A stretch of 64,000 bases of DNA from Nitrospinaceae bacterium (GCA_029261405.1 JAJDBK010000068.1:1-64000), one strand, 5' to 3'. Numbered from the stretch's first letter, positions 9,042 through 23,284 are shown. Numbers and translations: made by a program. The notes: a model not told the origin generated them from the sequence alone.

Positions 9042-9075
9042 AATGTATCAATTTAGACGGCGCCTTGGCAAGCGC
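9042..9075. repeat. 34-bp element shared with the IS481-like remnant
   Basis: This stretch matches 12767-12800 at 28 of 34 positions. The first 14 bases (AATGTATCAATTTA) and the last seven (CAAGCGC) are identical. At the second site it abuts a truncated IS481-like transposase. The simplest reading is a solitary end of a related insertion sequence left between pyrR and the TauE/SafE gene. No transposase coding sequence accompanies this copy. Confidence 0.5.
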
Positions 9076-12607: not shown

Positions 12608-12654
12608 TTACGCCTCGTCCAATGTGGTGAAATAGTCCAGTCAGGTTTTGTTGC

Positions 12655-12734
12655 GCGTGTGGGCTACACAAAACCAGTTGTTGAGCCTGAAACGCGATGT
12701 ACGCTCAACAACGAATTTTGTGTAGCCCACACGC
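12655..12734. repeat. Long imperfect palindrome (two 32-bp arms)
   Basis: The arm at 12655-12686 and the arm at 12703-12734 are reverse complements at 29 of 32 positions: 19 bp and 10 bp perfect blocks separated by a 3-base mismatch, with a 16-base loop. The outer sequence GCGTGTGGGCTACACAAAA is perfectly repeated. It lies upstream of ycjX and beside the IS remnant. It could be a terminator or insulator, a palindromic repetitive element, or the ends of a collapsed small transposon. There is no U-run on either side. Confidence 0.9.
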
Positions 12735-12766
12735 TAAGCAAAATATCTTCTGAACCAGACTACGCC

Positions 12767-12929
12767 AATGTATCAATTTAACCGACACATTGACAAGCGC
12801 CGCCTTGATATCGTAGTAATGCTGACGGCTGACACCGGGATTTCCGCACGCCTTCGTAATGTTGCCAAGCTTTTCGGCGAGTTCAACAATGTTGAGTTTA
12901 CGGTTGATGATATACTGCTGTCGAGTCAT
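12767..12929 (-). pseudogene. IS481-like transposase remnant (N-terminal fragment plus element end)
   Basis: From ATG 12929, preceded by AAGGAG, a frame begins MTRQQYIINRKLNIVEL and continues through a helix-turn-helix (NITKACGNPGVSRQHYYDIKAAL). This closely resembles the N-terminus of IS481-family transposases. After about 45 residues the similarity stops and the reading runs into the 34-bp element at 12767-12800, which is also found at 9042-9075. The catalytic DDE domain is absent. The copy therefore looks internally deleted, with start and one terminal sequence kept. The frame stays open to 12705, but the tail is probably meaningless. Non-functional as a transposase; the HTH fragment might still be translated. 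Confidence 0.7.
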
Positions 12930-13148: not shown

Positions 13149-16139
13149 TTACCCATTTTTCAGCATGTCATCGACACTGGTGGCTTTGATGTACCTGGCC
13201 GGGTTGTCGCCTTCGGCCAGCACGGCGAAGTGTTTTTCACCGCATTTGATCTTGGCCCCTTCCTTGTGCCGCAGATCATCCAACCAGACGCTACCCTTGG
13301 TCTCGACAACGAAATAGAGCTTTTCCTGCCCGTCAATTTCCACCAGCACCGCCCAGTCAGGGTTATATGTGCCAAGGGGTGTAGGTACTTTGAACCAGCC
13401 GGGTAGTTTAGCGTAAACCTTGACCGCCTCGTTTCGTTCCAAATCTTCGGCAAAGCGCTTTTCAACACCGGCGGAGTCGTAAATGACACGCTCAAAAACG
13501 GACTTTGAAGTTTCCAATGTATTCTTAAGGTAGCCGGTCAGCTCTTCCTTCTGAAAAAGCTCCTGGGCGTAGTAGTGATCGTCACCGACACGTTGATATC
13601 GAATACCATCAACAAGCGCGAGGCGTTTGGTCCTGTTGATCGCCTCCGTTGCCAGTTCGATGAATTCCTGCGGGTTCTTCTTGAAGTCGTTCAAGCGATG
13701 GCAACCGGTGAGAATTTCGACCAGGCTCCGCCGCTTCAGGCTCGTCTTGTCCTGCAAATCCGTTAGCAAATCCGGTAGCTCGATATCGGTTTCGTTGATC
13801 GATGTAAATCCCGACGTAGCGGTTTCTTTAGCCTCCACCCCACCCTTTCCAATAGCAATATCCGCCATACGGAATTGTGCTCGGGTTTTGGTTATTGGTG
13901 GACCATCTTGAATGGCTTTCGCACAATCCTCGATCAGCTTTCCATTGTCGAATTCGACCCGATAGGTCGTCTTGTGCTTGATGCGATCACATAGAGCCTT
14001 GAACTCTTCACTCTCCAACACCGCTTCGCGTGTGCGGACGGGAACTCGCTCATCCGCATTCTTGATATCGAGCTTCCCGGCAAGTTTGCGCAGAATGCTT
14101 TTGATCCCCGCTTCATGCTCTTTAAATTCCTCTGGTAGCTTAAGGGCATCTTCCTTCAGCGCAGTACGCAGGCTGTCCTGGACCTTCCCCCGATTGTCGA
14201 GGAAGTCATTTACCTTCAGAAAGTCCCAAACCTTCTCGGAATTCTCCACCCCAAGGGGTTGCGTTGTACCATCTTCGACAGTCACGGGAAGTGTGGCGAA
14301 CTGGTGTGGCTCTACGATTCCGAACCGGATGCCGGTATCCTGCTCGATTTCCTTCTGGAGGTTATCTGCAAATTGCTCATAGCTCTCGGTTGCGATGACA
14401 GTAAGCGTATTAATGTCAAAACCACGGAGCCGAAGTCCTTCCTGATTGACGCATAACCGAAGGCCGCGCCCAATGGTTTGCCGTCGTTCGCGCTCCGATC
14501 CCATATCTCTAAGCGCGCATATCTGGAAGACGTTCGGATTATCCCACCCTTCTTTCAGGGCCGAGTGGGAGAATATGAACTTGAGTTTGGATTCAAAGCT
14601 GAGTAGCTTTTCCTTCTCTTTCATAATCAGGTTATAGGCGCGTTCAGCATTGTCGCGGTTTGACTGGTTATTCTCCGCTGTTTCCGTCCACCCGCCTTTT
14701 TTGTCGATTGAGAAGTAGCCATTGTGAACATCACTGGCGTCGGTTTCGAGATCTATCTTTTCAAACAGCGTGTGGTAGTCGGGGTGTTTTGCCAGCTTGC
14801 GGTATTCCTCTTCAAACATCAGGGCGTATTTCCCCTTCACCGCGTTTCCGTCTTCATCGTAGCTTCGGTAATATTCCACGCTATCTATGAAGAACAGGCT
14901 AAGCGCTTTCACTTCCCGTTTCTGTGCCGCAAAGCGTATTTCCTTGTCCAGGTGCTCCTTGATCGTGCGACGGATCATCAGTCTCTTAAGTTTATCGGGA
15001 TTGACACCGCCAACCTCCCCGCCAGGTTGCATGGTCTGTTCACCGCCAGGCATACTGATTTCCATCGACTGATTACCGGCTCCGCAAGTGATTGTCCCGA
15101 TACGGAAATTCTCATAGATGGCTCGGCCAGTTTCCTGCTCAAGATCGTCTCCATCCTCGACGGTCACTACGTCTCGCCGGATGTTCTTTCCCCGCCTGAC
15201 ATCCAGCTCCACCTTGGCTGTGATCGAGCCACGCTTGTTGTGGGTTGAGAGTAGCTTTACATATGCTTTGTTGTGCCCACCTTCCACTTCCAGGGCGGCC
15301 ACTTCTATCTGCTTAACCAGCTCGCGATCATATGCGTCCACGGCGTCAAGCCGATAGAGCATATGGTGTTTATCTGCATGGGTTGCCGAATAGCGTAACG
15401 TGCAGAGCGGGTTCATGGCTTCGAGAGCTTTTTTCCCTTGCCCTTTCATGCCGCCATCCACACTTTGCGGTTCGTCAACAATGATGATCGGATTCGTCGC
15501 CCGGACCAGGTCAATCGGCTTTTCGCCACCGGTCTTCTCGCTATCCTTGTAAAGGTTGTTCACGTCCTTTTTATTGATCGCGCCCACGGTCACAACCATG
15601 ATCTGGATATTCGGGCTGGTGGCAAAGTTGCGCACCTGCCCAAGCTTGCCAGAGTCGTAGAGGAAATATTCGTAGCCCTTGGCTATCGGGTAGAGGTTTT
15701 CAAAATGCTCCCTCGTGATCTGGAGCGTCTTGTAGGTTCCCTCCTTGATGGCGACAGAAGGCACGACAATAACGAATTTGGTAAAGCCGTATCGCTTGTT
15801 CAGCTCAAATATGGTGCGCAGATAAACATAGGTCTTGCCGGTTCCGGTTTCCATTTCAACGGTAAAGTCGCCATTGGCAAGCGAGTCCGATGGGCGCAAT
15901 CCGTTGCGAAGTTGAATGCCGTGCAAATTCTCCAGAATTTCATCATCCAGGAGTTGAAGACGGTTGCCAATACCTAGCTCATTTCCATGTGAATGATAAT
16001 AAGAACCTTTTCGACCCGCATCTGTTTCGGAAACTACGGTAAATTCCGTGCGGCAAATATCCTGCCCGCTAAACAGGTCGGCGACGGCCTCTATGGCCGC
16101 ATGCTGATATTCCAGATTGTCTTCAAAGTGGAGTTTCAT
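13149..16139 (-). CDS. Type III restriction-type endonuclease/helicase subunit (Res)
   Basis: The 996-residue protein is a Res-type subunit: an SF2 helicase motor fused to a nuclease. Walker A is METGTGKT (residues 96-103), motif II is VDEPQS, and motif VI is RRQTIGRGLRL. A C-terminal PD-(D/E)xK nuclease site is visible as P927-D928 ... E946-T947-K948 (NPDWAVLV, VVETKG). In type III systems Res needs Mod for recognition and cuts about 25-27 bp from unmethylated sites after ATP-driven travel along DNA. Its ATG overlaps the stop of the DinD gene by 4 bases, so it is the last gene of the operon. All motifs are intact, so it should be active. Confidence 0.92.
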   Translation of the reverse strand: MKLHFEDNLEYQHAAIEAVADLFSGQDICRTEFTVVSETDAGRKGSYYHSHGNELGIGNRLQLLDDEILENLHGIQLRNGLRPSDSLANGDFTVEMETGTGKTYVYLRTIFELNKRYGFTKFVIVVPSVAIKEGTYKTLQITREHFENLYPIAKGYEYFLYDSGKLGQVRNFATSPNIQIMVVTVGAINKKDVNNLYKDSEKTGGEKPIDLVRATNPIIIVDEPQSVDGGMKGQGKKALEAMNPLCTLRYSATHADKHHMLYRLDAVDAYDRELVKQIEVAALEVEGGHNKAYVKLLSTHNKRGSITAKVELDVRRGKNIRRDVVTVEDGDDLEQETGRAIYENFRIGTITCGAGNQSMEISMPGGEQTMQPGGEVGGVNPDKLKRLMIRRTIKEHLDKEIRFAAQKREVKALSLFFIDSVEYYRSYDEDGNAVKGKYALMFEEEYRKLAKHPDYHTLFEKIDLETDASDVHNGYFSIDKKGGWTETAENNQSNRDNAERAYNLIMKEKEKLLSFESKLKFIFSHSALKEGWDNPNVFQICALRDMGSERERRQTIGRGLRLCVNQEGLRLRGFDINTLTVIATESYEQFADNLQKEIEQDTGIRFGIVEPHQFATLPVTVEDGTTQPLGVENSEKVWDFLKVNDFLDNRGKVQDSLRTALKEDALKLPEEFKEHEAGIKSILRKLAGKLDIKNADERVPVRTREAVLESEEFKALCDRIKHKTTYRVEFDNGKLIEDCAKAIQDGPPITKTRAQFRMADIAIGKGGVEAKETATSGFTSINETDIELPDLLTDLQDKTSLKRRSLVEILTGCHRLNDFKKNPQEFIELATEAINRTKRLALVDGIRYQRVGDDHYYAQELFQKEELTGYLKNTLETSKSVFERVIYDSAGVEKRFAEDLERNEAVKVYAKLPGWFKVPTPLGTYNPDWAVLVEIDGQEKLYFVVETKGSVWLDDLRHKEGAKIKCGEKHFAVLAEGDNPARYIKATSVDDMLKNG

Positions 16140-17008
16140 TTCGATTCCTGATTACCCTTTCCTTCAGGGAAAACTCCTGACTTTTTAGCTATTTTCTTTT
16201 CTTCCGATTTCACACGTCGTTCAAGCTTTTTGATATCTTCCGCCGGAGGGAGTTTTTCAGGTTTGATTCCACGCTCACCAAGCATCTGCCGGACACTCTT
16301 GTTATTCTGGATATGCTCGCCTGTTATGTCAGGTTCACCTTGCAAGTCTTCCTGCTGAACATTGTGGTTCGTAATTTCCGTGGCCAGATTCTTTGCCGCA
16401 ATGGTTAATGTAGGGAGAAAGTCCGCCAATGGCCGTGTTTGGGTAATACCATATTTTGTTTTCATCGCTTTTGTTGTGCTTCCACCGAACAAGGCGGCAT
16501 CACCTTTTGAACGAATCCTGCCAAAACCAGCATCATCCACACCACGTTCATATATATTTTGCGAAAGAGCCTTTTCAGATTCCTTGAGTCGGTCGCGGGT
16601 TTCCATACGGGCGATCAACTGCATACGATCTTCCAGAAGCTCCTGCTTGCGGGTTTGCAGGGCAAAATAGCTTTGGGCAAACGCTATCGGTTCTTTGCGG
16701 GGGTCACCGTTTTGAGCAATAAGATAACAGGCGTAACGGGTGAGCATAAAATCTTCGATAGGCCGCTCCGCTCCACTTCCCAAAGATACCATTTTCGTGA
16801 CGCCACGAAAATGGTCGTCTGGTTCATAACCTGTTGTTTTACAAGATGATATTGCGCGATTTATGGCGGTGAGGAAATTCTCCCACCGGGCATATCCCAA
16901 CGGTTCCTGCAAGTCCCTGGCAAACCAGAACTCTACATTATCTTCCGGCATGTTCTGAGCCAGAGAATCAAACCGATTTTGCATTTTTTCGATCGTATTT
17001 TTATCCAT
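16136..17008 (-). CDS. dinD: DinD-like DNA-damage-inducible protein
   Basis: The 290-residue protein resembles E. coli DinD: the BRO-N-like start (EFWFARDLQEPLGYARWENFLTAI), a central GVDDAGFGRIRSKGDAALFGG block, and the C-terminal half with PLADFLPTLTIAAKNLATEITNHN. DinD inhibits RecA filament activity in E. coli, and relatives are often embedded in restriction-modification operons. Its role there is not established. ATG 17008 has an AAAGGAA site 6-7 bases upstream. It sits between Mod (51-base gap with a perfect hairpin) and Res (4-base overlap). I see no LexA-type box directly upstream, so damage induction as in E. coli is not supported here. Confidence 0.87.
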   Translation of the reverse strand: MDKNTIEKMQNRFDSLAQNMPEDNVEFWFARDLQEPLGYARWENFLTAINRAISSCKTTGYEPDDHFRGVTKMVSLGSGAERPIEDFMLTRYACYLIAQNGDPRKEPIAFAQSYFALQTRKQELLEDRMQLIARMETRDRLKESEKALSQNIYERGVDDAGFGRIRSKGDAALFGGSTTKAMKTKYGITQTRPLADFLPTLTIAAKNLATEITNHNVQQEDLQGEPDITGEHIQNNKSVRQMLGERGIKPEKLPPAEDIKKLERRVKSEEKKIAKKSGVFPEGKGNQESK

Positions 17009-17023
17009 GATTCATTTCCTTTG

Positions 17024-17053
17024 GATCAATTTCCCAACGCCGGGAAATTGATC
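17024..17053 (-). promoter_or_regulatory. Perfect 12-bp hairpin in the mod-dinD gap
   Basis: GATCAATTTCCC (17024-17035) pairs perfectly with GGGAAATTGATC (17042-17053) across a six-base loop. It sits between the mod stop codon and the dinD ribosome binding site, without a U-run on the minus strand. It could slow ribosomes, protect an mRNA end after processing, or serve as a protein-binding palindrome that lowers expression of dinD and res relative to mod. Confidence 0.65.
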
Positions 17054-17059
17054 GTCTGT

Positions 17060-18931
17060 TTACAGACTACGCACATGAGCGATGCCGTTCTGTTCAAGAA
17101 TGGCTGTCATGTTGGTTTTTGCTATGTCATCGGCGAATGCGCTGTCCCGGAAGACCACCTGTGTATCACTTTCCGGTTTCAGCTCTTCATGCCAAGCGAC
17201 GATGCCCTGGGCAAGGCTTTCCACTTCGTCTCGACTGATGGAGGTATCGAGGCAAGCGAACAACACTCCATAACCGATGCTATAAACAGACTTGTCGGAT
17301 ATTTCCTTTTGCTCGATGGGTACAGTCAGATCAACGCCACGTTTCAGGAGCAATTCATAGAGAACGTCCTCTTCGCTCCGCCCTTCCACAAGATGATTCG
17401 CATGATCCAACAGCGTTTGCTCCAGATCATTCCTGTCCGGATTCCACGTTTGGATGTTGCTACTATCCAGCTTGAATACTTTGAATCCAAGATCACCCTG
17501 GTATAACGGAGTTTCTTCCTTGATTTTGGCGGCGGCGCGACGGATGCGTTCCTTGCCGATATCTGCAATGGTTTTAAAACCTGCCTTGAATGCTTCCGAT
17601 TTCTCGTCGCATGGTTCAGGAAGTTGAACCATTATAAAACTACTGTTGCTATTATTTTCTTTATTTAGTTCATAGGTAGCTTGGGCTGTAGTGCTTGAGC
17701 CTGCAAAGAAATCAAGAATCACATCTTCCTCCTGCAAGCCGCAAGTAAGCAGCTTTTTCATTAATTTTACAGGCTTGGGGAACTCGCTTACATCAGTACC
17801 GAATAAATGTTTTATTTCTTTTGCAGAGTCTTGCGAGAAACCTCCATCATTAATAATGGTTGGAAGAGTTGAGCCTTGACGGACTTCACTTGCATACCGC
17901 TTAAGATAGGGAGTGCCAGACTTTTCTCTAAACCCAATTCTTCCTTCAGATCGTAGCTGATCGACCTTTTCTTTATTATAGAGCCAACATTTATTTGTTG
18001 GAGGGTAGTATTCTTTGTTGTTATTTGGATTAACAATCGCGAAAACACAACTCTCAACCAATCTACCTCCTTTCCCATTTGCTGATAGGTCAGACGCCAC
18101 CCATGAACCTTTAGGATCACTATCAGGATTTTTATATCTTGCTAATACTCTTTCGCTCTTAGGCTGTAGCGAAATATTCAACCTATCAATATTTTTTGCG
18201 TAAGATAGAACATATTCATGATTCCTGCCAATTACTCTATCGTTTGGGGCCGTGGCACGCCTTTTCCACACAAGTGTTTCTATGAAGTTTTCCTCTCCGT
18301 AAATTTCGTCACATAAGTTGCGTAAACTGTTCACTTCATAATCATCAATTGAAATAAAGATAGCACCCTCATCTCTTATTAGATTCCTTGCCAGTTTCAA
18401 CCTCGGATACATCATGTTCAGCCAGTTAGTGTGGTATCTGCCTGAGCTGTCCGTATTGGAGCTGATCTTGAATCCTTCTTCATCTTTCTGGCCGGTGTAT
18501 TTCAAATAAGTATCAAGATTGTCCTGAAACTTGTCTGGATAGATGAACTCTTTCCCCGTGTTGTAGGGCGGGTCGATATAGATCATCTTGACCTTGTTGG
18601 CATAGCTTTTCTGCAAGAGTTTTAAAACTTCCAGATTGTCCCCTTCGATAAAGAGGTTCTGCGTGGTATCCCAATCAACGCTTTCTTCCTTGCATGGCCG
18701 GAGCGTGCCAAGAGAAGGGGTCAACGCTATCTGACGAGCCTTCTTCTTGCCATGCCAGTTGAGACCATACTTCTCCTCGCCTTCGGCCACTTCATCACCC
18801 AATAGCTGGCGGAGCGTTTCAAAGTTCACCCCGTCTTCTGTGAAAGCTTCCGGAAAAATGGCCTTTAAGGCCTCCAGATTTTCTTTCACCATATCGAGGC
18901 TTTTGCCATCCTGCTTTGTCATTTTTTCCAT
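17060..18931 (-). CDS. Type III-like DNA adenine methyltransferase (Mod)
   Basis: The 623-residue protein is a beta-class N6-adenine methyltransferase: motif IV DPPYNTG (residues 120-126) precedes the AdoMet motif I region (DVILDFFAGSSTT). An N-terminal Mod-type leader includes LFIEGDNLEVLKLLQKSY. It should methylate the host's recognition sites and supply specificity to Res. The chosen ATG 18931 has GAGGGA about 7 bases upstream and follows the DUF4391 stop by 10 bases; the longer frame would overlap that gene. The middle of the gene (about 17640-18420) is strikingly AT-rich compared with both ends, which marks the probable target-recognition domain as recently exchanged. Function firm; target unknown. 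Confidence 0.93.
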   Translation of the reverse strand: MEKMTKQDGKSLDMVKENLEALKAIFPEAFTEDGVNFETLRQLLGDEVAEGEEKYGLNWHGKKKARQIALTPSLGTLRPCKEESVDWDTTQNLFIEGDNLEVLKLLQKSYANKVKMIYIDPPYNTGKEFIYPDKFQDNLDTYLKYTGQKDEEGFKISSNTDSSGRYHTNWLNMMYPRLKLARNLIRDEGAIFISIDDYEVNSLRNLCDEIYGEENFIETLVWKRRATAPNDRVIGRNHEYVLSYAKNIDRLNISLQPKSERVLARYKNPDSDPKGSWVASDLSANGKGGRLVESCVFAIVNPNNNKEYYPPTNKCWLYNKEKVDQLRSEGRIGFREKSGTPYLKRYASEVRQGSTLPTIINDGGFSQDSAKEIKHLFGTDVSEFPKPVKLMKKLLTCGLQEEDVILDFFAGSSTTAQATYELNKENNSNSSFIMVQLPEPCDEKSEAFKAGFKTIADIGKERIRRAAAKIKEETPLYQGDLGFKVFKLDSSNIQTWNPDRNDLEQTLLDHANHLVEGRSEEDVLYELLLKRGVDLTVPIEQKEISDKSVYSIGYGVLFACLDTSISRDEVESLAQGIVAWHEELKPESDTQVVFRDSAFADDIAKTNMTAILEQNGIAHVRSL

Positions 18932-18941
18932 ACCTGTTCCC

Positions 18942-19700
18942 TCACAATTCGCTTTTGATCGCCTCGATATTCTCTGCAATCTGCTTGATCCGTGTGTTCA
19001 GTTGAACCTGTGTTCCCAAATTCTTTTCTTTCTTCAGTTTGTTACTGGTCTCGACCCGTTCCTGCTGTAGTTTTTCCATCTGCCGTAAAGCTTCCACCCT
19101 ATCAACGCTTGTACCTAGCGAATATTGACCGGTATGACAGGCGCAGTTCAGGGCGATGATCCGTTTCACTATATCTATATAGAAATCATAGAAGTTGCGA
19201 AAGGAATAATTCGTGGCTTTAAAATCATTGAGAAAATCAGTCTGCCATTGTTCCGGTTCCTGTAAGGATATCCAGCCAGTGTCGTGTACGGTTTCCACAA
19301 CGATCTTGTTGCTATCAGAGCGATTGATCCGCTTTTCAGCCACGTTAAGCGCGAGCTGGCCGCCGCAAACAAAAATTATCAGAACAGGATAAGGAATGGC
19401 TTTCTGCATGGCCATGGCGATGCGTGCGCTTCTCCCTGAGGCCGTAAGCAGAACCTGAAGGATGGCCACTTCCAGATATTCATGGGTTTCGTCTTCCAGC
19501 TTAGGGATATTAATCGTTGAAGGCTTTAGCGTGTACCGCCATTCGATGCTTTCTATATCCTCGACAAACGCCTTCTTGTCGGTGGCGTTGAGCTGGCCGT
19601 TATCGTAAAACTGCTTTTTATATATCCGCTTTCCAAGGGCGCAGGCTTCCGGCAGGGCCATATTCTGGTAGAACTGATCGAGCGTGATAGCTGTGGTCAT
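18942..19700 (-). CDS. DUF4391-family protein
   Basis: The 252-residue protein matches what I know of DUF4391: an N-terminal FYQNMALPEACALGKRIYKKQF region, a central strand-rich part (RYTLKPSTINIP, YPVLIIFVCGG) and a C-terminal coiled coil (about residues 205-252, LRQMEKLQQERVETSNKLKKEKN). The biochemical function is unknown. Members are typically found next to helicases and Mod-type methyltransferases. Its ATG overlaps the helicase stop by four bases and the mod gene follows 10 bases later, so it is made together with both. The coiled coil suggests that it bridges the helicase and the methyltransferase; that is inference. Confidence 0.75.
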   Translation of the reverse strand: MTTAITLDQFYQNMALPEACALGKRIYKKQFYDNGQLNATDKKAFVEDIESIEWRYTLKPSTINIPKLEDETHEYLEVAILQVLLTASGRSARIAMAMQKAIPYPVLIIFVCGGQLALNVAEKRINRSDSNKIVVETVHDTGWISLQEPEQWQTDFLNDFKATNYSFRNFYDFYIDIVKRIIALNCACHTGQYSLGTSVDRVEALRQMEKLQQERVETSNKLKKEKNLGTQVQLNTRIKQIAENIEAIKSEL

Positions 19701-22700
19701 GGCACGCTCACAATCATGTAGCTGATAACTTCGAAGTCTTCCATTCCCTGAAAGCTCTCTTTGGTCAGGTTGGTTCCCCCACGGGTGAACAGGCTTTCTA
19801 CGCCCTTCTCCTCCGACTTGCCAATGATACTGCTGACGGCGGTCTCCAACAGCGAGCGGTAATGGCTCATGTCCTTGCCATTTTTGGTTCGGTTGTTCAT
19901 ACGCTCAATGGCCTTGGCGTCTACTTGTTTTTGTCCATGGCCATGCTTTTTCAGAATGTCGAGAATGCGCTTTGACTGGGTGAAGGTCTGTTTCACCTGG
20001 CCATCATCAGTGATGTAGACAAGGTAATAGGGAGCAAGCGCGTAGCCTTCCTCTACCGCGACCTGTTTGCCAATGTTCTTCAGGCAAAAGATCACACCAG
20101 GCTCCAATTCTTCCTTTTGCAGTTCGGTATCCAGCGTCGTGGCCGCATATAGCCCGGTGGGTGATTGCTCCAGTTCGCCCAGGTGTTCTTTCATGAATGC
20201 GGACAAGTCCATCCGGAAGTCGTTCAAGGTAAGATCGGTGATCGAAACGCCACCCGATATATCTTCCAGATCAATGACGGTATCCTTGAGCTGTTGAAGT
20301 TGTTTCCTCCGATACTCAAGATCGTTCATCTTGCCAGTGGTGTCCTGCTCGATTACGTTTTCCTCACCAGTGGCGGAAATATCGAGAAGTACCATGCGAC
20401 CGCTGACCCGCGCTTCCAGATTGATATATTCGTCCAACTCCATGTTGGGCCAGAAGTTGACGAGCTGGATAGCCTTGTTCTTGGAGCCAAGGCGGTCTAT
20501 CCGGCCAAAGCGTTGAATAATGCGGACTGGATTCCAGTGGATATCGTAATTGATCAGATAATCACAGTCCTGAAGGTTCTGCCCCTCCGATATGCAATCC
20601 GTGGCGATCAGGAGGTCAATTTCATCAGTTGCCCTTTCGTCTATTTTGCCCCGCTCCTTTGAGATTGGAGAAAAGGAAGCGAGAAGAGTATCGAAGTTGC
20701 TCCCCATGTCTGGCATTGTAGTCTTGTTGGCGCCGCTTCCTGTGATTTTAGCCGAGTATACGCCCAAGGTCTCTTTAGCCCACTCGGCAAGATGCTCATA
20801 TAAATAATTGGCGGTATCGGTAAAAGCTGTAAAGACGATGATTTTGCGGTTACCATCATTGATAGGGTTCTGGCATTTCCCCTCGATCATGGCGCGTAGC
20901 CGGTGCAGTTTGGCATCTCGCTTCGCCTCGATGTCTCGGGCTTCGGATAGCAATTCGGTCAGTTTATCGTGGTCATCCTCTAGGTCTTGCTTCCATCGAA
21001 CTTCATCCATATCCTTGATTAGCGCCTTTACCTTTTTACCGATAAGGAAAGCGTCAAATTCAGGCTCATCGACCTCAATATCCTCGATCCCCAGTTCCTC
21101 GATGTCATCGCTACTGTGGTTTTCAAGTTTTTCCATCAGGCGATCCACCTCTCCCAGGAGCTTTTCCAAAGTGAGACTGAAGGAATTTATCGAGCTTTCC
21201 ATGCGCTTGAGCAGGTTCACTCGCATAAGGTGGATCAGACTTTGTTCCCGGTCTACCTGCCGGAATACCGATGCGCCACCTTTAACCTGAATGTCGTATT
21301 TGCGGTTATACTCCTCGCGCTTATCCGTACGCACATATTTAAGCGGTGAATATGCGCTGAGGTTTAGCTTGCGAATTGTGCGGTTGATCTCCACCAAGGG
21401 CGGAAACTCCCCTCCCCTATCGATATCTTCCTTAATGTTGATCGGTTTCAGGCGTTCTGGAAAGTCGCCTATTTCCGCTATGTCGTAATATTTCTCAATG
21501 TGCTTACGCGACCGGGCGATTGTCAGAATATCCAGAAGCTTGAAGTAATCGAAGTTCATGCTATCTAGCAGTCCTTCGACCGACCGGTTTTCATCGTCCA
21601 GCCGGAGCCATAGATTGAACCGGGTTTGCGCTTTCTTCAGGGTCTGCTCAACGCTCCCGACGCCAAAGTCGCTGTAGGCATCATCCCGGCCTTCAGCTAT
21701 AAAAGCGACCTGATTCTTCAGGTCGTTCATTCGGTTATTAACGGGAGTGGCGGAAAGCATCAGGACTTTGGTTTTTACGCCAGACCGGATGATTTCATTC
21801 ATCAGGCGGGAATAACGGGTGAGACCTTCCTTCGATGAGGAACTGCTATTGCGGAAATTATGAGACTCATCGATCACAACCAGATCGTAGTTACCCCAAT
21901 TCAGGGTTTCGAGATTGATTTCACCAGAGCGGCCTTGCAGGCGGGTCAGGTCAGTATGATTGAGTACGTCGTAGTTGAACCGATCCTTGGCAAGCAGGTT
22001 ACGCTTATCGTTTACCGTATAAACTGTCCAGTTGTCTCTTATCTTTTTCGGGCAAAGTACAAGTACACGATCATTGCGCAACTCGTAATATTTGATAACG
22101 GCCAGAGCCTCGAATGTCTTACCCAGGCCTACGCTGTCCGCGATGATACAGCCATTGTACTTTTCTATCTTGTCTATTGCGCCAAGAACACCGTCTCGCT
22201 GAAATTTATAGAGCTTTTTCCAAACGAGCGTTTCCTTGAATCCTGTTTTGGTTTTAATGATGTTGTCTTCGTCAATGTCTTGAAGGAAATCCTTGAACAG
22301 ATTGTAGAGGGTAAGAAAGTAGATAAATTCTGGCGATTGATCCTTGGTGAGGTTATCGAGCTGTTTCAGGAGTAGCTCCTTAGCGTCCTGAACAGCCGAT
22401 GGATCGTTCCATATGTCCACAAACCACTCCAGCATTGCCACCGTACTCATCTTGTCCGTGGTACAAGTGTTCATGTGGTATCGGTCAGTTTCGGTGTATC
22501 CGAAACCGGCGCTGGTGAACTCGGAACTACCTTGTATCGCTATTGCTTCCCCGTTCCCATCCTGAGCGTGAAAGAGGTTTTGGCTTATGGTCATGGGATT
22601 AGTTGCTTTGCGTATTTCCGCTTTGTTTTTAAGCCAGTCAGCGCATTCTTTGGCGACCTGCGCCTGATTGAGCTGGTTTTTGAACCGAAGCTCAAAACAA

Positions 22701-22921
22701 TCTCCGCCTAGTGATGTAAAACCTTCTTCCGGTGAACTGCTATTCACCTGATACTGCGACAGGACAAGGCGCAGACTGTCGATATGGAGCAATTCCTTTT
22801 TGAGAGATTCAAAGCCGTAGATCGAAAACAGACCAGATATGATGGACAGTTTCGAGCCGTTGGTTAAATGCTTCCGCAGTTCGTCACCGACTTTTCCGTT
22901 CTTTCTGTTATCAAGTAACAT
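19697..22921 (-). CDS. SNF2/DEAD-like helicase with degenerate PLD-like N-terminal domain
   Basis: This 1074-residue protein starts with a phospholipase-D-like domain (about residues 1-180) in which the HxK motif reads HAQ and is followed by QGSSEFTSAGFG, so the nuclease site looks inactive. The SF2/SNF2 motor follows: Walker A DSVGLGKT, motif II VIDESHNF, motif III MLSATPVNNR, motif VI QRFGRIDRLGS. Such PLD-SNF2 helicases occur in anti-phage loci including DISARM-like systems. It is the first gene of the five-gene operon. The ATG at 22921 has no good ribosome binding site; an eight-codon leader frame overlaps it (see findings). Function as DNA translocase is inferred. Confidence 0.88.
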   Translation of the reverse strand: MLLDNRKNGKVGDELRKHLTNGSKLSIISGLFSIYGFESLKKELLHIDSLRLVLSQYQVNSSSPEEGFTSLGGDCFELRFKNQLNQAQVAKECADWLKNKAEIRKATNPMTISQNLFHAQDGNGEAIAIQGSSEFTSAGFGYTETDRYHMNTCTTDKMSTVAMLEWFVDIWNDPSAVQDAKELLLKQLDNLTKDQSPEFIYFLTLYNLFKDFLQDIDEDNIIKTKTGFKETLVWKKLYKFQRDGVLGAIDKIEKYNGCIIADSVGLGKTFEALAVIKYYELRNDRVLVLCPKKIRDNWTVYTVNDKRNLLAKDRFNYDVLNHTDLTRLQGRSGEINLETLNWGNYDLVVIDESHNFRNSSSSSKEGLTRYSRLMNEIIRSGVKTKVLMLSATPVNNRMNDLKNQVAFIAEGRDDAYSDFGVGSVEQTLKKAQTRFNLWLRLDDENRSVEGLLDSMNFDYFKLLDILTIARSRKHIEKYYDIAEIGDFPERLKPINIKEDIDRGGEFPPLVEINRTIRKLNLSAYSPLKYVRTDKREEYNRKYDIQVKGGASVFRQVDREQSLIHLMRVNLLKRMESSINSFSLTLEKLLGEVDRLMEKLENHSSDDIEELGIEDIEVDEPEFDAFLIGKKVKALIKDMDEVRWKQDLEDDHDKLTELLSEARDIEAKRDAKLHRLRAMIEGKCQNPINDGNRKIIVFTAFTDTANYLYEHLAEWAKETLGVYSAKITGSGANKTTMPDMGSNFDTLLASFSPISKERGKIDERATDEIDLLIATDCISEGQNLQDCDYLINYDIHWNPVRIIQRFGRIDRLGSKNKAIQLVNFWPNMELDEYINLEARVSGRMVLLDISATGEENVIEQDTTGKMNDLEYRRKQLQQLKDTVIDLEDISGGVSITDLTLNDFRMDLSAFMKEHLGELEQSPTGLYAATTLDTELQKEELEPGVIFCLKNIGKQVAVEEGYALAPYYLVYITDDGQVKQTFTQSKRILDILKKHGHGQKQVDAKAIERMNNRTKNGKDMSHYRSLLETAVSSIIGKSEEKGVESLFTRGGTNLTKESFQGMEDFEVISYMIVSVP

Positions 22922-23207: not shown

Positions 23208-23284
23208 TGGTGCGCCCGACAGGATTCGAACCTGTGACCTTCGGAACCGGAATCCGACACTCTATCCAACTGAGCTACGGGCGC
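23208..23284 (-). tRNA. tRNA-Arg (anticodon CCG), CCA encoded
   Basis: On the minus strand the acceptor stem GCGCCCG pairs with CGGGCGC, and is followed by A and an encoded CCA (23208-23210). The D arm is GCTC...GAGT and the T arm is ACAGG-TTCGAAT-CCTGT. The anticodon stem TCGGA/TCCGA encloses the loop TTCCGGT, giving anticodon CCG, which reads the arginine codon CGG. All four arms fold cleanly. Its 3' end faces the defence operon, which makes it a natural integration boundary, but I see no direct repeat of this end at the far side. Confidence 0.95.

Follow-up and report, generated by a model that had tools for sequence, protein, structure and literature searches.

A type III restriction-modification operon of a Nitrospinaceae bacterium with a conserved helicase-DUF4391 pair and a DinD passenger gene

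The type III restriction-modification (RM) enzyme EcoP15I (Mod2Res1) is encoded in Mod-Res order, with a Mod that carries N6-adenine beta-class methyltransferase motifs and a Res that joins an SF2 helicase to a PD...ExK nuclease. SF2 motors are combined with PLD-fold domains in the type IV enzyme SauUSI and in NgoAVII/CglI, which are active nucleases; the SauUSI motif is 119-HxK(x)4E-126 (PMC7913695). DISARM class 1 holds an SNF2 helicase (DrmD) and an adenine methylase (DrmMI) in one locus. In a BREX-related type 2 system that also encodes DUF499 and DUF3780, an HKD-Swi2/Snf2 fusion, whose HKD part is a predicted active nuclease, stands beside an N6-methyltransferase and a small protein of unknown fold (PMC12839542). 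Accessory genes lie inside type I RM operons as well, among them prrC in EcoprrI (PMC12707154) and dinD, which is fused to hsdS in Bibersteinia (PMC4996451). According to the passage of PMC4457935 that cites Uranga 2011, E. coli DinD inhibits postsynaptic RecA filaments.

The operon described here lies in a window of 64,000 nucleotides, the whole stretch of DNA that was analysed, from a Nitrospinaceae bacterium (GCA_029261405.1 JAJDBK010000068.1:1-64000). It is probably an extended type III RM operon with a core of helicase, DUF4391, Mod and Res, in which the helicase-DUF4391 pair would be a dedicated accessory to Mod-Res and DinD an interchangeable second-line gene. Loci used for comparison are labelled L with a number.

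The operon and its proteins

Five minus-strand open reading frames (ORFs) and their junctions were read from the sequence, in the order helicase, DUF4391, Mod, DinD, Res. The features are as follows.

23208-23284, minus strand: tRNA-Arg(CCG), 3' end towards the operon
19697-22921, minus strand: helicase, SNF2/RapA-like, 1074 aa, with an N-terminal PLD-fold domain lacking HxK (SNF2-rel_dom, Helicase_C, PADLOC C3a139)
22217-22921, minus strand: PLD-fold domain of the helicase, aa 1-235 (structure model, PDB fold matches and motif)
18942-19700, minus strand: DUF4391 protein, 252 aa, an alpha/beta domain with a C-terminal helical hairpin (231 bits; model)
17060-18931, minus strand: Mod, type III DNA adenine methyltransferase and specificity subunit (N6_N4_Mtase; PADLOC MTase_III, 743 bits)
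17720-18262, minus strand: target-recognition region of Mod, swapped relative to the sister operon (alignment with L011)
17024-17053, no strand assigned: perfect 12-bp inverted repeat, an RNA hairpin in the Mod/DinD gap (-19 kcal/mol, z -3.3)
16136-17008, minus strand: DinD (Bro-N), passenger gene in the Mod/Res slot (NF008573, 379 bits)
13149-16139, minus strand: Res, type III restriction helicase-endonuclease (RE_endonuc and ResIII; PADLOC REase_III, 1237 bits)
13215-13505, minus strand: RE_endonuc nuclease domain of Res, PD...ExK (PF19778, aa 879-975)

Helicase and DUF4391 overlap by 4 bases, as do DinD and Res, while gaps of 10 bp and 51 bp separate DUF4391 from Mod and Mod from DinD. ORF calls and junction reads confirm the five-gene layout beside a tRNA given in a preliminary description of this DNA, and profile searches, including PADLOC models, bear out its family names for Res, DinD, Mod, DUF4391 and the SNF2 helicase. 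Mod starts at an ATG; its longest ORF opens at a TTG at 18979. The nearest relative of the operon, here called the sister operon, lies in another Nitrospinota genome, of the same taxonomic order, and has a Res that is 92% identical.

No minus-strand ORF of at least 60 aa lies upstream of the helicase in the window; in relatives, a small HTH or WYL regulator gene is often found just upstream of it (L016, L023, L024, L027). Attachment repeats were looked for around the operon and none were found. Elsewhere in the window, a YcjX/DUF697 gene pair is flanked by copies of a 34-bp repeat that are 82% identical; the second copy lies inside a 95-aa ORF and adjoins a 41-bp inverted repeat (9042-9075, 12646-12743 and 12767-12800). 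This ORF resembles the remnant of a transposase helix-turn-helix. The YcjX-like gene is absent from the other Nitrospinota (24 genomes searched). Directly downstream of the sister operon stands a gene for an 840-aa SMC/AAA ATPase (L078:12545-15067), which is absent at the window's operon.

By every testable feature of its sequence, the locus is a type III RM system. In an alignment of 35 sequences, the DPPY and FxG motifs of Mod are intact and enclose an internal target-recognition domain, and the protein matches the type III Mod structures 6k0w and 4zcf (EcoP15I). Compared with the Mod of the sister operon (L011), identity is 13-33% inside the target-recognition region and about 90-100% on either side. 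Because this region has been swapped, the recognition sites of the two operons very likely differ. Res contains the SF2 helicase motifs and a C-terminal endonuclease domain; its motifs TGTGKT, DEPQ, SAT and QxxGRGxR are invariant, the P-D and E-T-K residues of the nuclease are invariant in 31 sequences, and it matches the EcoP15I Res structure.

The helicase falls into the PADLOC group C3a139 'HKD+Snf2' (443 bits) and has RapA and SNF2 enzymes as its nearest solved helicases. With its motifs GLGKT, DESH, SATP and QRxGRxxR intact, it is apparently an active SNF2-class ATPase. The model of its N-terminal 235 residues (pLDDT 80) has the fold of PLD-superfamily nucleases, and its best PDB fold matches are SauUSI (7clg, E 1.7e-6) and the NgoAVII R protein (4rct). 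The 'PLD-like' label of the preliminary description therefore holds for the fold; no PLD Pfam family was matched, and the catalytic motif is absent. Where SauUSI has HxKx4E, the window's protein has H118-x-Q120-x4-E125, and across the family the catalytic HxK of PLD nucleases is missing, with the lysine at +2 in 0 of 34 helicase sequences and the histidine in 14. An active PLD nuclease in the helicase was thus rejected on motif. As HxK is absent from all 34 sequences, the domain is probably devoid of nuclease activity, which the loss suggests while falling short of proof; it would probably be a non-catalytic platform for dimerisation or DNA binding.

The model of the DUF4391 protein is a confident one (pLDDT 91), yet it matched nothing in PDB or BFVD at E<=0.001. 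A sequence profile search of PDB also gave no significant match, and none of the PADLOC models matched the protein. Without a recognisable fold, any role given to it is a guess. In the literature searched, which excluded most subscription papers, preprints and REBASE, no prior description of the four-gene unit was found under DUF4391, PLD/SNF2 with type III, or DinD with type III, and DUF4391 is mentioned only incidentally.

Conservation of the helicase, DUF4391, Mod and Res genes

All 14 plasmid loci recovered with DUF4391 as bait carry helicase, DUF4391, Mod and Res in the same order and orientation as the window, in Pseudomonadota, Desulfobacterota, Actinomycetota and the archaeon Methanomethylovorans; two of them have a Res that is cut short or carries an IS insertion. 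DUF4391 is present in 23 of 399 Pseudomonadota species (about 6%), and a strong RE_endonuc match (E<=1e-30) occurs in 22 of these 23 genomes versus 35 of the 399 overall. Among the DUF4391 loci excised from this sample, 16 hold the complete four-gene set and three more lose only the helicase, wholly or partly, to a contig end. The remainder comprise four that are cut inside the operon and are consistent with the order, one decayed locus (L072) and one exception (L062). All Pseudomonadota loci of testable length show the order except L062, which lies at a contig start, and the fixed order is also present in Nitrospinota. Of 5,426 complete genomes of E. coli, only 10 contain close relatives of a plasmid-borne E. 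coli version of the operon, and almost all of these lie on plasmids.

These gene orders define a conserved unit of four genes, SNF2 helicase, DUF4391, Mod and Res, whose order is fixed. The fixed order across distant lineages marks a composite system rather than Mod and Res with neighbours. The composite system proposed in the preliminary description accordingly stands for the helicase and DUF4391, which are built into the Mod/Res operon, and not for DinD; likewise, that the five genes rarely co-occur is true of DinD and false of the other four. The four genes seem to make up an extended form of type III RM that is widespread and has no name.

Pairwise distances of the four proteins are correlated (0.79-0.88 over 25 loci, Mantel p=0.001), and the four genes thus have a phylogenetic history in common. 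Rows of the Res tree that are linked to helicase and DUF4391 occur in two deep branches, and unlinked rows are interspersed within these, a pattern that fits an old association followed by repeated loss and would also allow repeated gain. The close Mod-Res relatives L163, L167 and L170 are without the helicase-DUF4391 pair, which is hence not essential for the persistence of a type III system.

These observations bear on a rather unlikely alternative, in which two defences lie side by side and the pair is an independent anti-phage module that shares with Mod-Res the operon and only the methyl mark, as a DISARM-like second arm. The relation of the helicase to DrmD and other defence SNF2 helicases would agree with such a module, as would the survival of Mod-Res without the pair in the three relatives and the several gains or losses required by the labels on the Res tree. 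However, L062 apart, the pair is never found away from Mod in loci of testable length; it keeps a fixed order with typical start/stop overlaps and co-varies with Mod and Res, and no other DISARM gene is present.

Two type III Mod-Res operons lie behind a different SNF2 helicase that has no PLD-fold part and no DUF4391 partner (L161:8112-10961, L173:8068-10998), which is another, independent helicase recruitment. Some cores have been inactivated by mobile elements: Mod by a Mutator transposase (L060:10360-11616) and Res by IS1380 (L021:10338-11723), and in L016 (14667-15137) Res is truncated.

DinD and other cargo at the Mod junctions

The DinD of the window scores 379 bits against the NF008573 cut-off of 242, is a PADLOC candidate (PDC-S13) and is the only NF008573 copy in its genome. 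Its membership in a five-gene system, as first proposed, did not survive the survey, where the window has the only intact core with DinD and L072 has one decayed DinD fragment. The five genes as one conserved unit were thereby ruled out. In the sister operon, which lacks DinD, 14 bp separate the Mod stop from the Res ATG; the window has 51 bp and dinD there. The 12-bp inverted repeat in this gap is unique in the genome, and its hairpin may modulate the expression of DinD and Res or have been left behind by the insertion.

Other genes occupy the Mod/Res or DUF4391/Mod junction in related operons: GmrSD in L014 and L065, RhuM in L058, L059 and L068, an OLD-like ATPase with DUF2130 in L023 and DUF2130 alone in L067, Schlafen/AlbA in L026 and L071, and Fic in L056 and L180, with a zeta-toxin-like kinase in L056. 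RhuM and Fic recur between Mod and Res (L056, L058, L059, L068, L163, L167, L180), including in operons without the pair, and type III loci may generally bear cargo at these junctions.

DinD itself is found in other company. Among 20 DinD regions surveyed in Pseudomonadota, 10 are part of a type I or type III RM operon. In most of these, DinD sits between hsdM and hsdS or next to them; one has the order Mod-DinD-Res, two have DinD-Mod-Res, and one places DinD beside a large N6_N4 methylase. Since it occurs in both type I and type III operons, DinD is a general accessory of RM loci, and in the present operon, judged by these comparisons, it occupies a cargo slot as a passenger that can be exchanged. 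That it is instead the built-in effector of a true five-gene composite is highly improbable. Such a composite could account for the in-frame position of DinD and its overlap with Res, and for the recurrence of Mod-DinD-Res in L117, which has the DinD most similar to that of the window (73%) and loses its upstream side at a contig end, but not for the want of DinD in the sister and every other intact four-gene core, nor for its being equally at home in type I operons.

The GmrSD, RhuM, Fic, AlbA/Schlafen and OLD-like genes at the junctions point to interchangeable second-line defence cargo rather than to a dedicated safety element. This weighs on another, quite unlikely explanation, that the pair serves safety or maintenance: its SNF2 motor would strip Mod-Res or other proteins off host DNA and limit self-cleavage at replication forks, and DinD would add control of RecA. 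A RapA-like helicase without a nuclease motif would suit that task, as would the modulation of RecA by E. coli DinD in the account cited by PMC4457935. Ordinary type III systems, however, live without the pair, and DinD is dispensable and replaced by genes that look like defence or toxin genes rather than safety genes.

Proposed function and relation to known systems

In the favoured reading of an extended type III operon, Mod would read and adenine-methylate a short asymmetric site, and Mod-Res, once sites had communicated at the expense of ATP, would cut incoming DNA that lacks the modification. The helicase and DUF4391 would be a dedicated accessory that acts on the same DNA that Mod marks. 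The non-catalytic PLD-fold domain would most likely provide the dimer or DNA-binding platform, the SNF2 motor would track along or remodel DNA, and DUF4391 may couple the motor to Mod-Res. With the pair, restriction could thus extend to DNA that escapes Mod-Res alone, such as DNA with few or badly oriented sites or blocked by protein. DinD would be a second-line gene that can be exchanged for others; among its relatives, the one studied best modulates RecA filaments. A bolder proposal, possible but doubtful, treats the pair as an undescribed immune module in its own right: it would bring a new protein fold and a motor with a pseudo-nuclease part, and a type III Mod would serve it as reader of self and non-self; the four-gene system would then be widespread, cleavage by Res only one of its outputs, and the Mod junctions docking sites for exchangeable second-line effectors.

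Of the 35 genomes in the sample whose type III Res match is strong, 22 carry DUF4391, and a large share of annotated ordinary type III RM systems may therefore hold the conserved pair, made up of a helicase and a partner of unknown fold, which textbook models and defence-finding libraries ignore. DinD-free, plasmid-borne versions in E. coli, such as the pCPWW7-IncF locus at L025:8662-18002, make the role of the pair directly testable, and the variable junctions are a place to seek new defence genes.

By the features and cut-offs tested, the four-gene locus is not DISARM, BREX or a PLD-helicase anti-phage protein. Like DISARM class 1, it joins an SNF2 helicase and an adenine methylase, but its Mod and Res are of type III, the helicase scores 168 bits against the DrmD model, far below the cut-off of 610, and the operon proteins include no DrmA, DrmB or DrmC, with neither DUF1998 (DrmB) nor another DISARM core domain among them. 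The BREX-related type 2 system likewise places an HKD-Swi2/Snf2 fusion beside an N6-methyltransferase and a small protein of unknown fold (PMC12839542); in the window the HKD is degenerate and accompanied by DUF4391 and a type III Res, and PglZ, DUF499 and DUF3780 are absent among the operon proteins. Against the PLD_Helicase anti-phage model NF042964, the helicase reaches 131.5 bits where the cut-off is 1100. It shares with SauUSI and NgoAVII/CglI a PLD-fold domain on a SF2 motor, but theirs are active nucleases, whereas the window's family never has the lysine and leaves the nuclease to a separate Res. Type I loci such as EcoprrI with prrC (PMC12707154) and those with hsdS-dinD (PMC4996451) also embed an accessory inside an RM operon, DinD included; the window differs in its type III core and helicase pair. 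In Mod-Res order, in the methyltransferase motifs of Mod and in the SF2 helicase and PD...ExK nuclease of Res, the locus is like EcoP15I, to which the window adds the conserved upstream helicase, DUF4391 and slots for accessory genes around Mod; the helicase-DUF4391 pair is outside the textbook type III system.
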